A stretch of DNA of 12,401 nucleotides from an uncultured Alphaproteobacteria bacterium (GTDB taxonomy: Bacteria; Pseudomonadota; Alphaproteobacteria; RF32; CAG-239), in NCBI GenBank assembly GCA_946618745.1, contig CAMOLN010000009.1:1-12401 (forward strand). The letters run 5' to 3'. The notes below the pieces were generated by a model. That model made no database searches and was not told the origin of the DNA. It worked only from the letters and a program-made list of their open reading frames with translations. Shown piece by piece: positions 685-10,354 of this stretch (its first letter is position 1; each line of letters starts with the position of its first letter). The translations under genes and the position numbers were made by a program.

Positions 685-1536
685 ATGAACTGGATTTCCG
701 AATTTGTCCGCCCCAAGATAAAAAAAACTTCAACTAAAGAAGTTTCCGATAATTTATGGACCAAATGTCCGGAATGCGGGCAAATGCTTTTTAATAAAGA
801 GTTGGAAAAAGATTATTATATTTGTTCTTTTTGCAATCATCACCTAAGATTGCCGATTGAAAACAGATTTAAAATGCTTTTTGATAATTCGCGTTATCGT
901 TTGATAAATTTACCTAAAGTTCAAGACGATCCGCTGAATTTTAAAGATACCAAAAGATACATAGATCGTTTGAGAGCTTACCGTCGCGCTTCTCATACCG
1001 ACGACGCCTTATCAGTTGCCGTAGGTAATATTGATTCTATCAGAACCGTGATAGGAGCTTTAGATTTTAGCTTCATGGGCGGATCAATGGGTATAGCTGT
1101 AGGTGAAGGCATAGTCAAAGCTTGCGATTTTGCCGCAAAAACATCAGCTCCCCTAATCCTAATAGCAGCTTCCGGCGGAGCACGTATGCAAGAAGGTATG
1201 TTATCATTAGTTCAAATGGCTCGTACCACCGCAGCAATTAGTTCTTTTAAAGAAAATGGATTACCTTATATATCCGTCATGACCGACCCCACCACCGGAG
1301 GAGTATCTGCTTCTTTTGCCATGTTAGGCGACATTAATATTGCCGAACAAGGAAGTATTATCGGATTCGCCGGTGCAAGAGTCATCGAACAAACTCTGCG
1401 AGAAACCTTGCCCGAACATTTTCAAAAAGCCGAATATTTGCGTGACCACGGAATGATTGATATTGTTGTAAATCGCATGGATCTAAGAGACACTTTAGCT
1501 CGTATACTAAAACTACTCACGTCTAAAACAAATTAA
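685..1536 (+). CDS. accD: Acetyl-CoA carboxylase carboxyltransferase beta subunit
   Basis: Beta subunit of the carboxyltransferase half of bacterial acetyl-CoA carboxylase. With AccA it moves the carboxyl group from carboxybiotin-AccB to acetyl-CoA, giving malonyl-CoA for fatty acid synthesis in the cytoplasm. The N-terminal zinc ribbon is intact: CPEC at 28-31 and CSFC at 47-50 (four cysteines). The crotonase-like core shows FMGGSMG at 130-136, SGGARMQEG at 163-171 (oxyanion-hole glycines), TDPTTGGVSASFA at 200-212 and GFAGARVIEQT at 227-237. At 283 residues it is close to the family norm of 280-305. The ATG starts directly after the lapA TAA with no separate leader, so it probably depends on coupling; AAAGAAAG upstream is a weak ribosome site. 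No accA lies in the window. Neither trp genes before it nor folC after it are present. Confidence 0.97.
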   Translation: MNWISEFVRPKIKKTSTKEVSDNLWTKCPECGQMLFNKELEKDYYICSFCNHHLRLPIENRFKMLFDNSRYRLINLPKVQDDPLNFKDTKRYIDRLRAYRRASHTDDALSVAVGNIDSIRTVIGALDFSFMGGSMGIAVGEGIVKACDFAAKTSAPLILIAASGGARMQEGMLSLVQMARTTAAISSFKENGLPYISVMTDPTTGGVSASFAMLGDINIAEQGSIIGFAGARVIEQTLRETLPEHFQKAEYLRDHGMIDIVVNRMDLRDTLARILKLLTSKTN

Positions 1537-1550
1537 GGATTCTTTCATCC

Positions 1551-3032
1551 ATGTTGTCACTAAAACATATTTCAATCAACTCTTTCAACGAAAGCATCAT
1601 CTACCTGCACAAAGATTGCGAAGCTTACAAAGTTGATGAAATAAACAATATGACTAAAGTTGAAGTTCATGGAGGAGCTTCCCCCATATTTGGTTTTTTG
1701 GAAATTATTGATGATGATAGCATTTTGAGCACCAACGAACTCGGCCTGAATAATGAAGCATTTCAGTTAATTAATTTACCGGAAGGTGCTGATGTCAGTT
1801 TAACCATCGCTCCACAACCTCCTTCACGCCCCTTTATTAAACGAAAAATGCTCGGCAATATTCTTTCCGAAACAGAATATGCAGCTATTATAAACGATAT
1901 CGGCAACCATCGCTATTCTAACATTGACACTGCTGCTTTTTTAGTTGCTGCAGGCTCATTTATGACTGCACCGGAAACCTTATCTTTAACCCAATCTCTG
2001 GTTGGTAACAAGGTTTTTCACTGGGATAATGAAAATATCGTAGTAGATCACCATTGTTTAGGAGGTATCCCCGGAAACAAAACCGATATAATCATCACCG
2101 CAATAGTGGCTGCTTATGGCTTACCGATTCTTAAAACCGCTTCACGTTCCATAACTTCATGCGCCGGTGTAGCTGATACCTTTTCTGTTTTGGCTAATGT
2201 TGATATTGATGAGCAAAAAATCCGCCAGTTGCTTGAAAACGAGCGCGGCGTAATTGTTGATTATAATACCTTGCCCTTGGTTTCTGCTTGCAAATTGATT
2301 TCATCAGTCGAACGAACTCTCGGCATCTCACAACAGCATAATATTGTATCAGAAATTCTTGCTATAAAATTAGCCTCCGGCATAACTAATCTGGTACTAG
2401 ATATTCCCGTCGGCCCGACTTCTCGTATAAAATCAATCGAAAATGCCGTGCAAATTCGCAAACTGGTTGAATACATAGGAGACATGTTATCTCTGAAAAT
2501 TGATGCCGTAATAACAGACGGTAGCGAACCTATCGGTAATGGAGTAGGCGCAGTATTGGAAGCTCGTGATGTAATGAAAGTTTTACGCAATCGTGATGAT
2601 GCACCACAGGATCTTAAAGAAAAATCTCTGTTTCTTGCCGGACGTATTTTGGAGTTTGATCCCAAATTACGCGGAGGACAAGGATATCATGTTGCCAAAG
2701 AAATTCTGAATTCCGGCCGTGCACTTGAAGCAATTAACCGCATCATTTATAATCAAGGTAAAGCTCCGCAAGCACGCCTGGGCAATCTAACTCGCGAAAT
2801 AACTGCCGATCGTTCGGGAACAGTCCAAAGCATAAACAACCAACGCATTAATCACCTTGGTATTCTTGCCGGTGCTGGTCAATATGCCGGAGCTGGATTT
2901 GATTTGCTTAAAAAAGTCGGAGACTCTGTCACTGCCGGAGAAACATTATATATTATACACTCAACCAATTCCAATGATTTAGCTATGGCTAACTCAGCCA
3001 TCGATAGTGACAATGGCTATGAAATAAAATAA
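1551..3032 (+). CDS. Long-form nucleoside phosphorylase-II (thymidine/AMP phosphorylase-like) family protein with altered active site
   Basis: 493-residue homologue of the archaeal AMP phosphorylase / bacterial 'putative thymidine phosphorylase' family, which splits nucleosides or nucleotides with phosphate. Residues 1 to about 95 form the extra N-terminal domain of this long form. The core follows, with LGGIPGNKTD at 170-179, SRSITSCAGVADT at 198-210, LVLDIPVGPTSRIKS, TDGSEPIGNGVGAVLEARD from 322, and a C-terminal domain with GAGQYAGAGFDLLKKVGD. By eye against E. coli thymidine phosphorylase and family consensus, the phosphate ligands differ: Lys84 is His167 (DHHCLGG instead of DKHxxGG), Ser113 is Ala197 and Thr123 is Val207. 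The base-binding Ser186 and Lys190 align with Glu268 and Ile272. The reading frame is intact and full length, so it is not a decaying gene. AAGGA precedes the ATG by about 11 nt. It follows accD after 14 nt and meets the minus-strand gene 8 nt past its stop. The family is sure; classical phosphorolysis is doubtful. Confidence 0.85.
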   Translation: MLSLKHISINSFNESIIYLHKDCEAYKVDEINNMTKVEVHGGASPIFGFLEIIDDDSILSTNELGLNNEAFQLINLPEGADVSLTIAPQPPSRPFIKRKMLGNILSETEYAAIINDIGNHRYSNIDTAAFLVAAGSFMTAPETLSLTQSLVGNKVFHWDNENIVVDHHCLGGIPGNKTDIIITAIVAAYGLPILKTASRSITSCAGVADTFSVLANVDIDEQKIRQLLENERGVIVDYNTLPLVSACKLISSVERTLGISQQHNIVSEILAIKLASGITNLVLDIPVGPTSRIKSIENAVQIRKLVEYIGDMLSLKIDAVITDGSEPIGNGVGAVLEARDVMKVLRNRDDAPQDLKEKSLFLAGRILEFDPKLRGGQGYHVAKEILNSGRALEAINRIIYNQGKAPQARLGNLTREITADRSGTVQSINNQRINHLGILAGAGQYAGAGFDLLKKVGDSVTAGETLYIIHSTNSNDLAMANSAIDSDNGYEIK

Positions 3033-3040
3033 TCCGCAAA

Positions 3041-4726
3041 TTACTTCGGCATATATATTTCAAACAAAGCATTTTCATAAACCAAATTATTTTTATATGC
3101 CTGTCTCAAATTTATTGCCTTAGTAGATTTATTTTCTTTATTGATAACCAACCAATCTCCTTTTTCCGGCAAAGGTTTAGGAACCAGCGGAAAATAAATA
3201 AGCGGAATATTATTAAATATTTTCAACTTTTGTGTAATATTGCGATCTAAATAATGCACGTCTGATTTTATTACAAAAATTCTATCATTAAAATAATAGC
3301 GATAAGCTGTCGACCACGTCTCAATAATCCACTGCCACAAAGTCTTTGTAACATAAGGTCCTTCTAAAATAAAAACAGGATTAACGGTTTTTGGCTTGGT
3401 ATGGTCAGCCATATATTCAGCAACTTCACGATAATATACCCCTTTATTTTGCCGATGAAACATCATATCGGTCTGAACACTGTAAACTATCAATAATACC
3501 CCAAAAACCCCTAACAGTTTTTTATTATCAATATATTCAAAAAGATATGCCAAAACAAACAATGTTGATGTAAGCATATAATAACTTTTACCGGCTAAAT
3601 GCGGTGTTGAAGGCGACAACTTAAATATTACAACAATCGCAACAGCTGTGCAAATCGCCCCAACCAACAATCCTGATCGAAACATCGGATTGTTTTTTTC
3701 ACTGTAAAACTTAATTAATCTATAAACAGCTATACCGACAGCAACCGCCATCAAAATCAATTCCAACCTATAACTCACCAATTGTTGTAACAATGTTTGC
3801 TTATTGGCCGAAAGATAAAAATTAGCACCATTTTGCAAAATCTCAAATATTACCACATAGCATAACAAACTTAACGATAATAAAAATTCTATAGGCATTA
3901 TTTGAATAATTCTCCACGGCTTTAACAAGCTCTTCATAACAATTTTTTCCGTTATGACATTATAAATCAACGAGGTCAATACTATACCTGAATAGAAAAT
4001 TATACAGGTTTCTTTTGTATAAATCGCAATATTTGCAAACAATATAAAAAATGCTGCCCACTTTAACTGATGCGTTCTGCAATATTTACGAGCAAAAATC
4101 AATCCCAACATTAAAGCTATTATCATATCCCTTTCCGGAAAAATAATATTTGCCGTTTGTAACAAAGTCGGCATTACCAACAAAATAGCTATCATCCATA
4201 ATTTTTTTGCCACCGGAATATAATTAAAAAATGCCGCCAATGCCCACGCAACCAACATCGTTTGAAACAAAACGAATATCTTTATTACAATGATATTCTG
4301 CGTAATCGCATACAAACTTGATAAATACCATGACCCCAGCGGTATAACCCGAATATAATCAAAACTGGCAACCAGCCCGAATCGCATTGAACGAGTGGTA
4401 TTTATAGCCATTAAATCATAATTTTCAAACAGTGAATTTTCTAATGTTAAAATATACACTTCTGTAAATATAATTGCAGCAATAACCGCTACCAATGCAA
4501 CCCAATCTGATGCCTTTTTATAATCAAAAACATATATTTTATCACTAAAACAGTCTGCATATAACTTTTTATTGCTTAAACAGTTACGCAAAAAAATCAT
4601 ACTCACGGCTAGCACTAGAGCCACAACCCCTAAATAAAACAGCCATGGGCGTGTCGATAAATAAGTATAATTAAATTTCAAAAAATTTTGCCATATATTA
4701 TCTTGCAACCAAGGAAGCTCAAACAT
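3041..4726 (-). CDS. Polytopic membrane protein, probable GT-C-fold glycosyltransferase
   Basis: 561-residue integral membrane protein with about 12 hydrophobic segments, for example at residues 28-46, 73-94 and 140-165, and several more to about residue 420, then a soluble C-terminal part of roughly 130 residues. That architecture, with an acidic first outer loop (ENYDL, then MRFGLVASFDYIR), resembles GT-C enzymes that take a sugar from a polyprenyl-phosphate donor on the outer membrane face. No named family signature was recognised, so the function is inferred from topology and neighbours. The frame can start at TTG 4729, but the ATG at 4726 is preferred: AGGAG lies 7 nt before it and only 4 nt before the TTG. 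The ATG overlaps the end of the upstream glycosyltransferase by 8 nt (ATGTTTGA), so the two are coupled. It could instead be an oligosaccharide polymerase or a flippase-like protein. Confidence 0.6.
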   Translation of the reverse strand: MFELPWLQDNIWQNFLKFNYTYLSTRPWLFYLGVVALVLAVSMIFLRNCLSNKKLYADCFSDKIYVFDYKKASDWVALVAVIAAIIFTEVYILTLENSLFENYDLMAINTTRSMRFGLVASFDYIRVIPLGSWYLSSLYAITQNIIVIKIFVLFQTMLVAWALAAFFNYIPVAKKLWMIAILLVMPTLLQTANIIFPERDMIIALMLGLIFARKYCRTHQLKWAAFFILFANIAIYTKETCIIFYSGIVLTSLIYNVITEKIVMKSLLKPWRIIQIMPIEFLLSLSLLCYVVIFEILQNGANFYLSANKQTLLQQLVSYRLELILMAVAVGIAVYRLIKFYSEKNNPMFRSGLLVGAICTAVAIVVIFKLSPSTPHLAGKSYYMLTSTLFVLAYLFEYIDNKKLLGVFGVLLIVYSVQTDMMFHRQNKGVYYREVAEYMADHTKPKTVNPVFILEGPYVTKTLWQWIIETWSTAYRYYFNDRIFVIKSDVHYLDRNITQKLKIFNNIPLIYFPLVPKPLPEKGDWLVINKENKSTKAINLRQAYKNNLVYENALFEIYMPK

Positions 4727-5543
4727 CAATTTGCTCCTTTACCATAAATTTAAGTCTCAATTTTTCTGCTATAACCAACCAATAAGGATAAAAGAACTTT
4801 ATTTTTTTACCGAATTTATCAGCCAATTCTTTTTTAATTTTCCTGTCAGCAATCATCATTTCATGTTTTTTCAATAATGACCAATTATCCCCATGCAAAC
4901 TATATTTAACCAATATTTGCGGAATATTGGCTAAAGTTAATTTTTTTTCCATAGCTTGTCTCACAAAATCATAATCCTCTGCCGGAGAATATTCTTCACG
5001 ATATTTTATATTCAAATCATTAAACACTTCCCGGCGATACATAATTGTAGGGTGCATTAACACATTACCCTTCCATAAATCGTTCCAATCCGGTCTCAGC
5101 GGATGACACCATACCCATCCTAAATTAGTTATTAATCTACGCCAAAGTGAAGCACCTTTTGGACATAACAATTCAAACCAACTTCCCGTCATCGCTACAT
5201 CTTTATGCCTATCTAAAAAATCAACTTGAACTTTTAACCGATTGGGTTTGCAAATATCATCATGATCCAAAACGGCAATATATTCCCCTTTTGCCATATC
5301 AATCAGCTTATTACGCGTAACCGATATACCCAAGTTGCTATTATTTCGAACATATTTTATACGTTTATCATCAAATGATGCAATTATCTTTTCGGTCTCA
5401 TCTGTTGAAGCGTCATCACATAATATCAATTCAAAATCATCATAAGTCTGCGCCAAAACAGCAGAAATAGTCTCTTTTATAAACTTTTCGCCGTTATAAA
5501 CCGGAACTAAAACAGATACTTTAGGATGCGAAGTTGTTAACAT
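4719..5543 (-). CDS. Family 2 glycosyltransferase (GT-A fold)
   Basis: 274-residue cytoplasmic glycosyltransferase that should move a sugar from a nucleotide-sugar donor to an envelope glycan acceptor. The N-terminus KVSVLVPVYNGEKFIKETI begins the GT-A Rossmann-like fold. LILCDDASTDET at about 39-50 holds the nucleotide-binding acidic pair, VLDHDD at 91-96 is the metal-binding DxD-type motif, and AEDYDF at 188-193 supplies the probable catalytic base (the ED motif of family GT2). There is no transmembrane segment; the tail is basic. Sugar and acceptor cannot be told from sequence. The ATG has no clear Shine-Dalgarno; the leader is about 30 nt from the predicted promoter in the divergent gap. 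It is the first gene of a two-gene minus-strand unit with the GT-C-like membrane protein, which overlaps its end. Confidence 0.88.
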   Translation of the reverse strand: MLTTSHPKVSVLVPVYNGEKFIKETISAVLAQTYDDFELILCDDASTDETEKIIASFDDKRIKYVRNNSNLGISVTRNKLIDMAKGEYIAVLDHDDICKPNRLKVQVDFLDRHKDVAMTGSWFELLCPKGASLWRRLITNLGWVWCHPLRPDWNDLWKGNVLMHPTIMYRREVFNDLNIKYREEYSPAEDYDFVRQAMEKKLTLANIPQILVKYSLHGDNWSLLKKHEMMIADRKIKKELADKFGKKIKFFYPYWLVIAEKLRLKFMVKEQIDV

Positions 5544-7412: not shown

Positions 7413-8149
7413 ACAGATTTTCCTTCGCGTAATACCTTATCTGCCAAATCGCTATGTTTACCATCCGCATTATGCACATATAACGGAGCATGAATCATCA
7501 ATGGTGCTCTTGAATCCTTTTGTGCCCTAACTATAACTCTTTTGGCCTTGTCATCACTCGGTTTGGAAAAAATCGGAAAAACCTCGATTTTTCCCAACCT
7601 TCCATGAATATCAGCTAAAATATATTCTAACATTTCTGCCCGATTTATCATATAGAATCTTCCCTGTGGGCGCAATGCTTTCAAACAAAAATCAATCCAC
7701 CTGTCAAAAGCATTTCTATTAAAATTATGTGCTTTAGCTTTGCTTTCATTTGGTGAGGGCATATCGCCCATCGAATATGGAGGGTTCGAAATAACATGAT
7801 TAAAACTGCACGGCTTATATCGTTTATTTAGTATATCAATTTCAGTAAATTTGACATTATCAAATCCATTTGCCGCAGCACTTGTGTTTGCTGCTTCTAC
7901 CAACTCTTTTTGCAACTCCACCCCTTCAATCAACAGATTCTTATCCTTAAATCTTGACGCTAGGCATAATGCTATTACTCCGGTTCCTGCTCCAACATCC
8001 AATATTACATCATTTTTCTTAACATCTTTCACCGCTGCAGCTAACCAAACCGCATCAGTCGAGGCGTGATACAATCCCTCAGGTTGATATATTTTAACCG
8101 TTCTATTCAGTAAGTAATCACAATTACCTTCAATCATAACTCTTTCCAT
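7409..8149 (-). CDS. TrmN6-like tRNA/N6-adenine methyltransferase
   Basis: 246-residue SAM-dependent methyltransferase of the TrmN6 (YfiC) / HemK-like group. The characterised E. coli enzyme methylates N6 of A37 in tRNA-Val1; substrate identity here is inferred. The N-terminal stretch RTVKIYQPEGLYHASTDAVW is the typical lead-in (compare 'QP..GYR...D..LLAA'). Motif I is ILDVGAGTG at 49-57, VELQ (77-80) is the ribose-binding acidic strand, and SNPPY at 121-125 is the catalytic NPPY of N6-adenine and glutamine methylases. Length fits the family. Two starts are possible: this ATG, which overlaps the upstream gene by 16 nt, or the ATG at 8137 (residue 5), which forms an ATGA overlap with the upstream stop and has GGAAAGAG just before it. 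The second gives 242 residues and may be correct. It is the last gene of the minus-strand operon. Confidence 0.85.
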   Translation of the reverse strand: MERVMIEGNCDYLLNRTVKIYQPEGLYHASTDAVWLAAAVKDVKKNDVILDVGAGTGVIALCLASRFKDKNLLIEGVELQKELVEAANTSAAANGFDNVKFTEIDILNKRYKPCSFNHVISNPPYSMGDMPSPNESKAKAHNFNRNAFDRWIDFCLKALRPQGRFYMINRAEMLEYILADIHGRLGKIEVFPIFSKPSDDKAKRVIVRAQKDSRAPLMIHAPLYVHNADGKHSDLADKVLREGKSV

Positions 8150-8874
8150 GTTATAGCCGCACGAGCCAACTCACGAGCATTCTCTCCTTTTGCTCTTATG
8201 CTATGTGTAGATTTATCTCCGATCATTGAAGTAACAACTTCAATATCCTCACCTATAAAACCTTCCTTTTTAAAATTAACTTCAATTTTCGCCGGAGTAT
8301 GTGTTTTATGCCAAGCATTATCAACTGCTTCACCTGCCCATAAAACATAAACTGCATTATTAATATGATGATTTATATCAATATCATCATAACGCACCCT
8401 ATATTTATAATATTCCAAATCATCTAAAGGCTCACTGATTTTTGCAAAATCTGTTTCCAAAACATGCTCATCAATCGCCGTATATCCTTGCAATGTATCC
8501 GGAATAGATAACGGACGTTTCTTATCCAAACTGATTAACAACCACCTGCTCGCCGATTTAATTATTGATTCCCCCTTTTCATCGCAAATCTCAAAATCTC
8601 TGCGTGCCGCTAATTTTCCTGCCAAAGAAGGCCAAGTTTGTAAAACTATTTTTTCATCAACCTTGGGCAAACGTTTTATCTCGATTACATAATCATTTCC
8701 CACCCATGTCATATTATTCTTAATACAAAATTCCATTCCAAAACCGCGCCGCGCCGCATCTTTAGTCGCTGCATCTTGCAAAATATTCATTAAGGTTACC
8801 AAACGAAGATTATTATTTTGATCTCCCTCATAAGAACGAATTGAATAATTTTCTTTCAATTTATCAAATTCCAT
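8134..8874 (-). CDS. Acyl-ACP thioesterase-like protein (double hotdog)
   Basis: 246-residue member of the acyl-ACP thioesterase family (PF01643; plant FatA/FatB and bacterial relatives), which frees fatty acids from acyl carrier protein. The first hotdog repeat carries MTWVGNDYVIEIKRLP at 55-70, then TWPSLAGKLAARRDFEI and SRWLLISLDKKRPLSIP. The second has VRYDDIDINHHINNAVYV at about 160-177. The proposed catalytic set of the family is present: D166, N168 and H170 in DINHH and E204 in FKKEG. The residue after that Glu is Gly, where plant enzymes have Cys. The open frame runs on to 9036, but the start is set at 8874: GGAG stands 7 nt before this ATG, and the extra 54 residues lie wholly inside the upstream gene and match nothing in the family. 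It overlaps the RNase J-like gene by 11 nt and the TrmN6-like gene by up to 16 nt. Confidence 0.86.
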   Translation of the reverse strand: MEFDKLKENYSIRSYEGDQNNNLRLVTLMNILQDAATKDAARRGFGMEFCIKNNMTWVGNDYVIEIKRLPKVDEKIVLQTWPSLAGKLAARRDFEICDEKGESIIKSASRWLLISLDKKRPLSIPDTLQGYTAIDEHVLETDFAKISEPLDDLEYYKYRVRYDDIDINHHINNAVYVLWAGEAVDNAWHKTHTPAKIEVNFKKEGFIGEDIEVVTSMIGDKSTHSIRAKGENARELARAAITWKEL

Positions 8875-10354
8875 GTTTTTTCTCCATTTTATATTCAATA
8901 ATCTTAAATTTCTGCATGGTTCTTCTTTTGCTGTAAGTATTGCGAATACTGCCATGCCCGGCTGTCGGACATTGCAAAGTCTTAACCATCTTACCGTCTT
9001 TTTGCGAAACCATCCAAACTGCAGGCTTTTTTTCAACTAATTTATATTCATTTTTTCCAAACTTATACAGCATATTATTATGTGGTAACGGATTTATCAG
9101 ATTAAAACCGGCCAATTGTCCCACTTCATAAAATTCTTCCAATACAAAATCCGGACAATGCGTCGGAATATAAACTGCTTTATTCATAATTTGCTTTAAT
9201 ATTTGCCAATCGCCCATAAAAGCATGCCCCGATCCGCGCAATAACGGCTCATCAACCACTGATATAGTTTTAATACCCTTATTTTCGGCTTGCTTTTTCA
9301 AAGACGCATAACGCAATCGCGCAGTTATAAACATCAAAGCATCTCTTGAGTTTATCCAATATTTATCTTCTAATTTACGATAAGTCCCGATTATTACAAA
9401 TTTACTTCCCAGTTGTCCCAAATCATTCGGTAATTTTTCAAAAACCTTGATACGATTCTTAGCTATCGCTTCAAAATCAATTCCATATTTAAACAACAAG
9501 CGCAAATAATTATAAAAATCTTCATCACCGTGAAAAGCTACATTAAATCCTAATTTTAATGCAACTAAAAAAGCTACTATATACATCTCCACATGGGTCG
9601 GATACACTGTCATATAAATTTTCTTTTTACGAAAATGCTTAATTAACCCGATAAATTTTTTATAAACATCGCTTTCTCGATAAGCGATTCCTTCATGATC
9701 AATCTCACAAAAATCCCCGACCACATAATTAATCTTTTCTGCCATCTGGCGCAACCGCTTAACGTTAGTTGGCTTTTTAAAAAACGTCGAATTATCAAGC
9801 TTCATATCTCCGCTGTGATAAACCGTAACTTTATTAAAACTCAACAAAAAACCATAAGCATCAAAACAAGTATGAGAAGCACTCAAAACCTCAATTTTTA
9901 AACGTCCGAAACGTTTTATATCTCCATTTTTAATAACCACAAAGCGCGGTCTCTGTTTCTGCGAAATTTTGTAAAAATCATACAGGTCATCCAACACTAT
10001 TTGCGTATATCTTCCACCGTAAAGTGTCGGCAATTTATAACCTGCCCGCAAATAATGGACTAATCCGTTCAAATGATCAGGATGGGAATGAGTTAGAAAA
10101 ATTGCTTTTAATCCGTTGTTTTTATCTTTCAATAATGCGGTAATATCAGGCACAGCTGCAACTGCACCATCAACGCCTAACGCCTGATAATTATCAAATT
10201 TTCCCACATCTATTAATAATGAAGTTTTAACCGTCTTATTTTCTCTTTGCTCGACACAGGTATACTGATAACAATGACCGCTTATTTGATCAATATTATT
10301 GCCGCCCAACGGCCGCCAGTACAAACCTGTGTCCAGCATAGAGTTTCTTTCCAT
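8864..10354 (-). CDS. RNase J-like metallo-beta-lactamase/beta-CASP protein
   Basis: 496-residue metallo-hydrolase whose layout follows RNase J, a 5'-3' exo- and endoribonuclease. The metal site looks complete: D49 (LLIDVG), HSHPDH at 89-94, H161 (SASHT) and D183 (HSGDMKLD, as in RNase J HTGDFKFD). The beta-CASP motifs are also traceable: D214 (VVGDF), SGHA at 375-378 and PTH at 397-399. Two RNase J hallmarks are lost: the TGSQGEP stretch is replaced by IIGTYRKLEDKYW (from 321), and PxHGE is replaced by PTHCPDF. This suggests a divergent relative, perhaps with another RNA or nucleic acid substrate, not the housekeeping RNase J. The start ATG lacks a good ribosome site; ATG 10339 (residue 6), with GGAAAG about 7-9 nt before it, is an alternative. 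It begins 14 nt after the lytic transglycosylase stop. Confidence 0.72.
   Translation of the reverse strand: MERNSMLDTGLYWRPLGGNNIDQISGHCYQYTCVEQRENKTVKTSLLIDVGKFDNYQALGVDGAVAAVPDITALLKDKNNGLKAIFLTHSHPDHLNGLVHYLRAGYKLPTLYGGRYTQIVLDDLYDFYKISQKQRPRFVVIKNGDIKRFGRLKIEVLSASHTCFDAYGFLLSFNKVTVYHSGDMKLDNSTFFKKPTNVKRLRQMAEKINYVVGDFCEIDHEGIAYRESDVYKKFIGLIKHFRKKKIYMTVYPTHVEMYIVAFLVALKLGFNVAFHGDEDFYNYLRLLFKYGIDFEAIAKNRIKVFEKLPNDLGQLGSKFVIIGTYRKLEDKYWINSRDALMFITARLRYASLKKQAENKGIKTISVVDEPLLRGSGHAFMGDWQILKQIMNKAVYIPTHCPDFVLEEFYEVGQLAGFNLINPLPHNNMLYKFGKNEYKLVEKKPAVWMVSQKDGKMVKTLQCPTAGHGSIRNTYSKRRTMQKFKIIEYKMEKKHGI
8882..8885 (-). promoter_or_regulatory. Ribosome-binding site deciding the thioesterase start
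   Basis: GGAG on the minus strand, 7 nt before the ATG at 8874 and inside the last codons of the RNase J-like gene. It selects this ATG over the longer open frame that reaches 9036. Confidence 0.7.

Follow-up and report, generated by a model that had tools for sequence, protein, structure and literature searches.

A long-form nucleoside phosphorylase-II homologue of small-genome alphaproteobacteria with replaced phosphate and base ligands

In E. coli thymidine phosphorylase (DeoA) we take Lys84, Ser113 and Thr123 to be the phosphate ligands and Ser186 and Lys190 to be the base ligands. The archaeal AMP phosphorylase (4ga5) aligns with a Val in the Lys84 position and an Asn in the Ser95 position. 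Among long forms from alphaproteobacteria, those termed canonical here carry K167, H168, T207, S268 and K272 in 26/26 cases and S197 in 25/26, the sole exception being a Thr in L023; these 26 were drawn from the 30 best-scoring loci, the 4 others being altered, and represent the high-scoring end. The terms canonical, window-like and scrambled are our own groupings. For human thymidine phosphorylase, the excerpted part of PMC2719695 reports that the K115A mutant remains active and that H116F, H116K, R202S, R202E and S217G are without activity, and human Ser217 can be matched to E. coli Ser186 through the offset between His116 and His85 in the same excerpt.

The gene described here encodes a protein of this family in which most of these ligands differ. 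We favour, with a probability of roughly 55%, that it is a pseudo-phosphorylase or a protein becoming one, with the ligands replaced and the fold and gene kept. No literature joining the term pseudoenzyme with thymidine phosphorylase was found.

The gene and its family

The window, meaning the whole stretch of 12,401 nucleotides that was analysed, comes from a lineage in which RF32 is presumably the order and CAG-239 the family. The features of interest are the following.

685..1536, forward strand: accD, 14 bp upstream of the phosphorylase gene on the same strand
1551..3032, forward strand: altered long-form nucleoside phosphorylase-II protein, 493 aa (NF003338 / PRK04350)
1551..1820, forward strand: N-terminal domain of the long form, residues ~1-90; the 4ga5 alignment starts at residue 1
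2040..2090, forward strand: phosphate loop, residues 164-180 (VVDHHCLGGIPGNKTDI), with H167, H168 and D179, from alignments and conservation
2127..2183, forward strand: glycine-rich loop, residues 193-211, with Ser113 replaced by A197, Thr123 by V207, and with C204, from alignments and conservation
2334..2378, forward strand: base-binding helix, residues 262-276, with Ser186 replaced by E268 and Lys190 by I272, from alignments and conservation
2433..2762, forward strand: residues 295-404, of all large blocks the most conserved one in both altered lineages, from relative entropy and gain-of-constraint sites

The uninterrupted frame of 493 residues noted in the preliminary description is indeed open from 1551 to 3032. 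The accD stop overlaps an AAGGA (1535-1539) that could plausibly serve the phosphorylase gene as its ribosome site. An antisense ORF at 2261-2665 on the reverse strand was considered as a source of conservation and rejected: pooled pS there was 0.50 in ten pairs, the same as elsewhere, so that no constraint is visible at the nucleotide level. Further along the reverse strand, 3041-4729 encodes a 562-aa protein that looks membrane-bound by eye, overlaps a family 2 glycosyltransferase gene and has no match in Pfam or NCBIfam. At 8134-10354, also on the reverse strand, the listed ORFs for an acyl-ACP thioesterase and an RNase J-like MBL protein share 173 bases; residue 59 is the first one in the Pfam match of the thioesterase, whose true start is therefore probably further downstream.

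Family membership rests on the NF003338 whole-protein score of 483.4 bits, which passes the curated cut-off of 434 and counts against a pseudo-phosphorylase. The scores for PF02885, PF00591 and PF07831 were 26.2, 27.6 and 32.3 bits against cut-offs of 26, 27 and 27, thus just to modestly above. The protein fails both equivalog cut-offs, with 346.6 against 535 for AMP phosphorylase (TIGR03327) and 101.6 against 570.7 for DeoA (TIGR02643). Its predicted structure has the fold with the long-form N-terminal domain, as in AMP phosphorylase, and short phosphorylases align to it only from about residue 88-91, after that domain. From the canonical NF003338 ligand set (Lys, His, Ser, Thr, Ser, Lys) it keeps the His alone.

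The same genome encodes a separate short DeoA (G000:C29) with all ten E. coli residues that were checked (Lys84, His85, Ser86, Ser95, Ser113, Arg115, Thr123, Arg171, Ser186 and Lys190), as do five further DeoA genes taken from genomes with an altered long form (6/6 in all). Ordinary thymidine phosphorolysis should therefore not need the altered protein. Three genomes (G095, G212 and G307; for example G095:C24:11992-15877) have two neighbouring short DeoA-like genes besides the long form, one of each pair being more divergent (~136-143 vs 210-216 bits to NF003338).

Ligand positions in the altered proteins

Aligned to E. coli DeoA, Lys84 becomes H167, His85 is H168, Ser86 becomes C169, Ser95 D179, Ser113 A197, Thr123 V207, Ser186 E268 and Lys190 I272. 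All five replacements named in the preliminary description (H167, A197, V207, E268 and I272) are borne out by this alignment; the list in that description overlooked the change of Ser95 to D179, an Asp in 156/156 close homologues. Retained are H168, the equivalent of the catalytic His85, together with G171/G172, D209 and K273. The Lys84 replacement, correct in itself, carries no information, because AMP phosphorylase, an active enzyme family, has a Val there and human K115A is active in the excerpt of PMC2719695.

One explanation for such a protein is an ordinary NMP phosphorylase in which the replacements are tolerated, K195, K177 and D179 hold the ligands and phosphorolysis is normal. The activity as a family of AMP phosphorylase without the Lys84 and Ser95 equivalents speaks for this, as do the active human K115A and the presence of K195 in 154/156 window-like and 33/34 scrambled proteins. 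Ser113, Thr123 and Lys190 are however kept in AMP phosphorylase and in the canonical proteins (25, 26 and 26/26) and replaced here, the window protein has a Glu (E268) at the position equivalent to human Ser217, where the S217G mutant was inactive in the same excerpt, and the inferred pathway partners described below are gone. We regard normal phosphorolysis as improbable.

Window-like proteins (n = 156) were collected from two protein searches, taking the best 120 listed in each, and are part of all relatives. H168, G171, G172, D179, D209 and K273 occur in every one, V207 in 154, C204 and I272 in 152 each, A197 in 143 and R199 in 133. Position 167 is H in 127, F in 24, C in 3 and Y in 2, and position 268 is Ser in 127 and E in 29, so that the complete H/A/V/E/I set is found in 27/156. 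The changes of Ser95 to Asp and Thr123 to Val are near-fixed in these proteins and not drifting. Across 190 altered proteins Lys was found at position 167 or 272 in none. In the 71 altered loci, Asp179 was present in 66, His168 in 59 (lost in 12), Val207 in 56 (Thr in 5, Ala in 5), Ile272 in 49 (Lys in 2), Ala197 in 41 (Ser in 5) and Glu268 in 6. Single ligands are retained in a few altered members, Lys190 in L022 and L126 and Thr123 in L022, L089, L121, L127 and L129, which counts against the pseudo-phosphorylase. Taken together the counts from both sets indicate that Val207, Ile272 and Asp179 mark the relatives of the window protein and that Glu268 is a recent addition.

With H168, the glycine pair and D179 invariant, the window protein may have a binding or catalytic site that was re-tuned, and the pocket of its lineage, which is not random, would suit a re-tuned active or binding site just as well as a pseudo-phosphorylase. 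An enzyme of new specificity, with the pocket re-tuned to another nucleotide, a sugar phosphate or an anion, and with glycosyl transfer through His168 kept in the window protein and lost later in some other lineages, is a possible explanation, which we consider less likely than the pseudo-phosphorylase. It is favoured by the six residues without exception in the window-like proteins, by the near-constancy of V207, C204 and I272, and by the near-fixed Asp and Val. Against it, with an Asp at a phosphate position and the Thr, Ser and Lys ligands gone, Pi is a less likely co-substrate.

The scrambled set, consisting of L118 and its 33 best matches (n = 34), also speaks against this explanation, since this nested lineage retains the gene with 23/34 proteins lacking the catalytic His, which is present in 156/156 window-like proteins. 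G171 is lost in 19/34 and G172 in 33/34, Val, Ile, Leu or Ala stands at position 197, and position 272 holds Asn, Thr, Ser or other residues; 11/34 still carry His168. His168 is also lost in L126, L127, L129 and L130, altered proteins outside the window's family. That lineages with many members lacking the His retain the gene favours a non-catalytic role. The predicted fold is intact in altered proteins: the model of L118 shows a full-length AMP phosphorylase fold with a pLDDT of 91.9 and a TM-score of 0.93 to 4ga5. In L118 and its relatives position 172 has become Asp/Glu in 31/34 and position 171 Asp in 18/34; with D166 and D179 these residues make up an acidic cluster, a putative cation site.

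Phylogeny, gene neighbourhood and selection

A tree was inferred with IQ-TREE from 54 of 104 sequences with the active-site columns removed. Partial, interrupted or duplicate entries (L024, L131, L138, L139 and identical proteins) were removed from the tree and counts; L085 and L087 duplicate L023 and L022. The 35 altered sequences formed a single clade (UFBoot 100). A clade in which the five residues are fixed had been anticipated in the preliminary description, and the clade was recovered; the fixation was not, since position 167 varies and E268 is recent. The window's family comprises 26 of the sequences (UFBoot 100), and nested within it is the scrambled group of 10 sequences (UFBoot 86), or of 7 sequences with UFBoot 100 when L119, L121 and L122 are left out. 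Branching order within the window's family is poorly supported, with several low values. The nearest canonical relatives were L063/L064 (the same as L135 and L136), with weak support (UFBoot 53). Their gene lies inside an hrcA-grpE-phosphorylase-dnaK-dnaJ locus, has a canonical pocket and is accompanied in one of them by a Prs paralog.

Canonical genes have characteristic neighbours, a beta-CASP RNase and/or a PRPP-synthetase paralog being found in 23/26 loci when 1.5 kb flanks were searched. A domain scan of one RNase, that of L068, gave PF10996 and PF07521, and a scan of one paralog, that of L072, gave NF005537. In L066, L067, L068, L072, L078, L081, L083 and L086 the three genes form a cassette of beta-CASP RNase, long-form phosphorylase and PRPP synthetase paralog. 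This gene order suggests that the canonical cassette is a route in bacteria from RNA through NMP and ribose-1,5-bisphosphate to PRPP.

Neither partner was found beside the gene in 71 altered loci, 28/70 of which were fetched at less than 5 kb and the rest longer, nor in the 60 wider altered loci, some of which are duplicates of one genome. This loss of partners is a further point against a new specificity. In whole genomes, from sets that were chosen and not random, a beta-CASP RNase was present in 7/8 canonical vs 0/15 altered genomes, and a PRPP-synthetase paralog of at least 38% identity in 5/7 canonical vs 0/15 altered genomes, where the best match had 31%. One canonical genome (G081) lacks both partners. 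The window genome (G000) gave no match to the partner RNase family. The MBL protein at 8864-10354 was considered as the lost partner and rejected, its resemblance being to RNase J (TIGR00649, 76.9 bits against a cut-off of 400).

The altered genes have other neighbours, with dnaK in view in 43/71 and accD in 31/71 altered loci. In the window dnaK is not beside the phosphorylase gene, and 16/60 wider altered loci are without a chaperone gene in view, including L031-L033, three from among the nearest relatives of the window. The dnaK neighbourhood is a lead and not proof of partnership. A search for a CIRCE/HrcA operator near the gene in 68 loci of at least 6 kb, allowing up to 4 substitutions, gave a single match, ~4.5 kb off in the canonical L137. 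In L037, L044, L049, L050, L056-L060 and L149 an open frame that by eye looks like a Gfo/Idh-type oxidoreductase comes directly after the phosphorylase gene and before dnaK. A few record titles, one naming roe deer cecum, suggest that many hosts of the gene are gut bacteria.

Purifying selection was strong in most close pairs measured. Ten window-like pairs (dS 0.14-1.8) gave dN/dS values of 0.009-0.029, and for the scrambled pair L117/L118 the value was 0.037. It was not low in the altered pair L123/L148 (0.114, dS 1.37), a point against the pseudo-phosphorylase, and reached 0.109 and 0.165 in two canonical pairs. Of 23 pairs, window/L003 (0.023, dS 5.1), five with infinite dS and three with saturated dS (>2; L115/L117 0.073, L121/L122 0.149 and L126/L130 0.093) were set aside. 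In five matched window-like pairs the phosphorylase was about as constrained as accD (0.006-0.024 vs 0-0.032). Such constraint despite the loss of ligands suggests a different, perhaps non-catalytic job now.

The opposite explanation, a decaying gene heading for loss and kept by history alone, is already disfavoured and we consider it highly improbable. Whole genera of the family are without the long form (none in 12 g227, 2 g231 and 5 g232 genomes), so the gene is not universally needed, and in another family the long form (G094, L138) is broken by a stop. Against decay stand the low dN/dS of the ten window-like pairs, accD-like in five, and the sampling of the order, in which 68/100 genomes encode the long form and 0/68 have an internal stop, which also argues against chance or a single assembly error. 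Of 22 genomes of the same genus besides the window's, 19 have it complete, 1 has it cut at a contig end and in 2 it was not found. The earlier claim of selection, not decay, fits these values.

Conservation by region and a possible non-catalytic role

Conservation was compared at 21 pocket positions, chosen by us among the ligands of the E. coli and human enzymes and the residues next to them. In canonical proteins these positions vary far less than the remainder (entropy 0.30 vs 1.46, p = 2e-8). In window-like proteins the entropy of the pocket is slightly lower than that of the rest, without significance (0.42 vs 0.70, p = 0.07, n = 156; 0.46 vs 0.63, p = 0.13 in a second data set), and in scrambled proteins it is more variable than the rest (1.43 vs 0.79, p = 8e-4). 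Relative entropy of the pocket was 0.21, 0.63 and 1.59 in the canonical, window-like and scrambled proteins respectively. The block of residues 244-276, which includes the base side, went from 0.42-0.57 to 1.43-1.45 in altered proteins and now evolves faster than the protein mean, which again disfavours a new specificity. Inversely, residues 295-404 were at 0.63-0.72 in both altered lineages vs 0.90-1.10 in canonical proteins, and within them block 346-404 fell from 1.04-1.10 to 0.63 in both. The gain-of-constraint sites are no more than suggestive of a putative new binding surface, since divergence is lower in the altered set (mean pairwise identity 0.59 vs 0.50).

For the favoured pseudo-phosphorylase, gene order suggests that the ancestor would have been an NMP phosphorylase whose cassette also held a beta-CASP RNase and a PRPP synthetase. 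One clade of small-genome alphaproteobacteria would then have lost the partner genes and exchanged the ligands for phosphate and base, with fold and gene retained for a job that may be independent of phosphorolysis. Acting as a scaffold or regulator, the protein would probably do this job through its fold and through the surface near residues 295-404, and in the window lineage the remaining pocket (H168, G171, G172, D179, C204, D209 and K273) may still serve as a sensor that binds a ligand. The simplest account would place the phosphorolysis-independent function already in the common ancestor of the altered lineages. More tentatively still, and with somewhat less confidence than the new specificity, a nucleotide phosphorylase could have moved into the hrcA-grpE-dnaK-dnaJ locus and been rebuilt as a non-catalytic nucleotide- or stress-sensing scaffold, losing its RNA-salvage partners, with the site re-tuned (H168, D179, C204, V207 and I272) and then abandoned in the nested lineage, and with a new surface at 295-404. 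The suggestion of the preliminary description, a dead regulator or a new ligand or reaction, holds in that either alternative fits; the part built on a fixed five-residue set and on Lys84 does not.

One family offers a graded series, from canonical genes with partners through canonical genes in the chaperone locus and the near-fixed altered pocket to the scrambled pocket, with the full-length frame retained throughout and strong purifying selection in most close pairs measured. Existing sequences therefore allow each step in the evolution of this possible pseudoenzyme to be tested. The evolutionary pattern is well supported and the mechanism is a proposal. The automatic label thymidine phosphorylase is doubtful on the altered genes, which would have consequences for metabolic models of these alphaproteobacteria.

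Among known systems the closest is the NF003338 / PRK04350 long-form 'thymidine phosphorylase', which the window protein matches over its whole length with the same three Pfam domains and the N-terminal domain. It differs from the canonical members (n = 26) by H, V, E, I and A for K167, T207, S268, K272 and S197 (25 of them), by the Asp for Ser95, and by the absence of the RNase or PRPP-synthetase gene beside the gene. The T. kodakarensis AMP phosphorylase (4ga4/4ga5/4ga6) retains Ser113, Thr123, Ser186 and Lys190 where the window protein has A197, V207, E268 and I272. E. coli DeoA (TIGR02643) is 24% identical to the window protein, and with anthranilate phosphoribosyltransferase TrpD the alignment is confined to model residues 88-410 with an identity of 16-19%.
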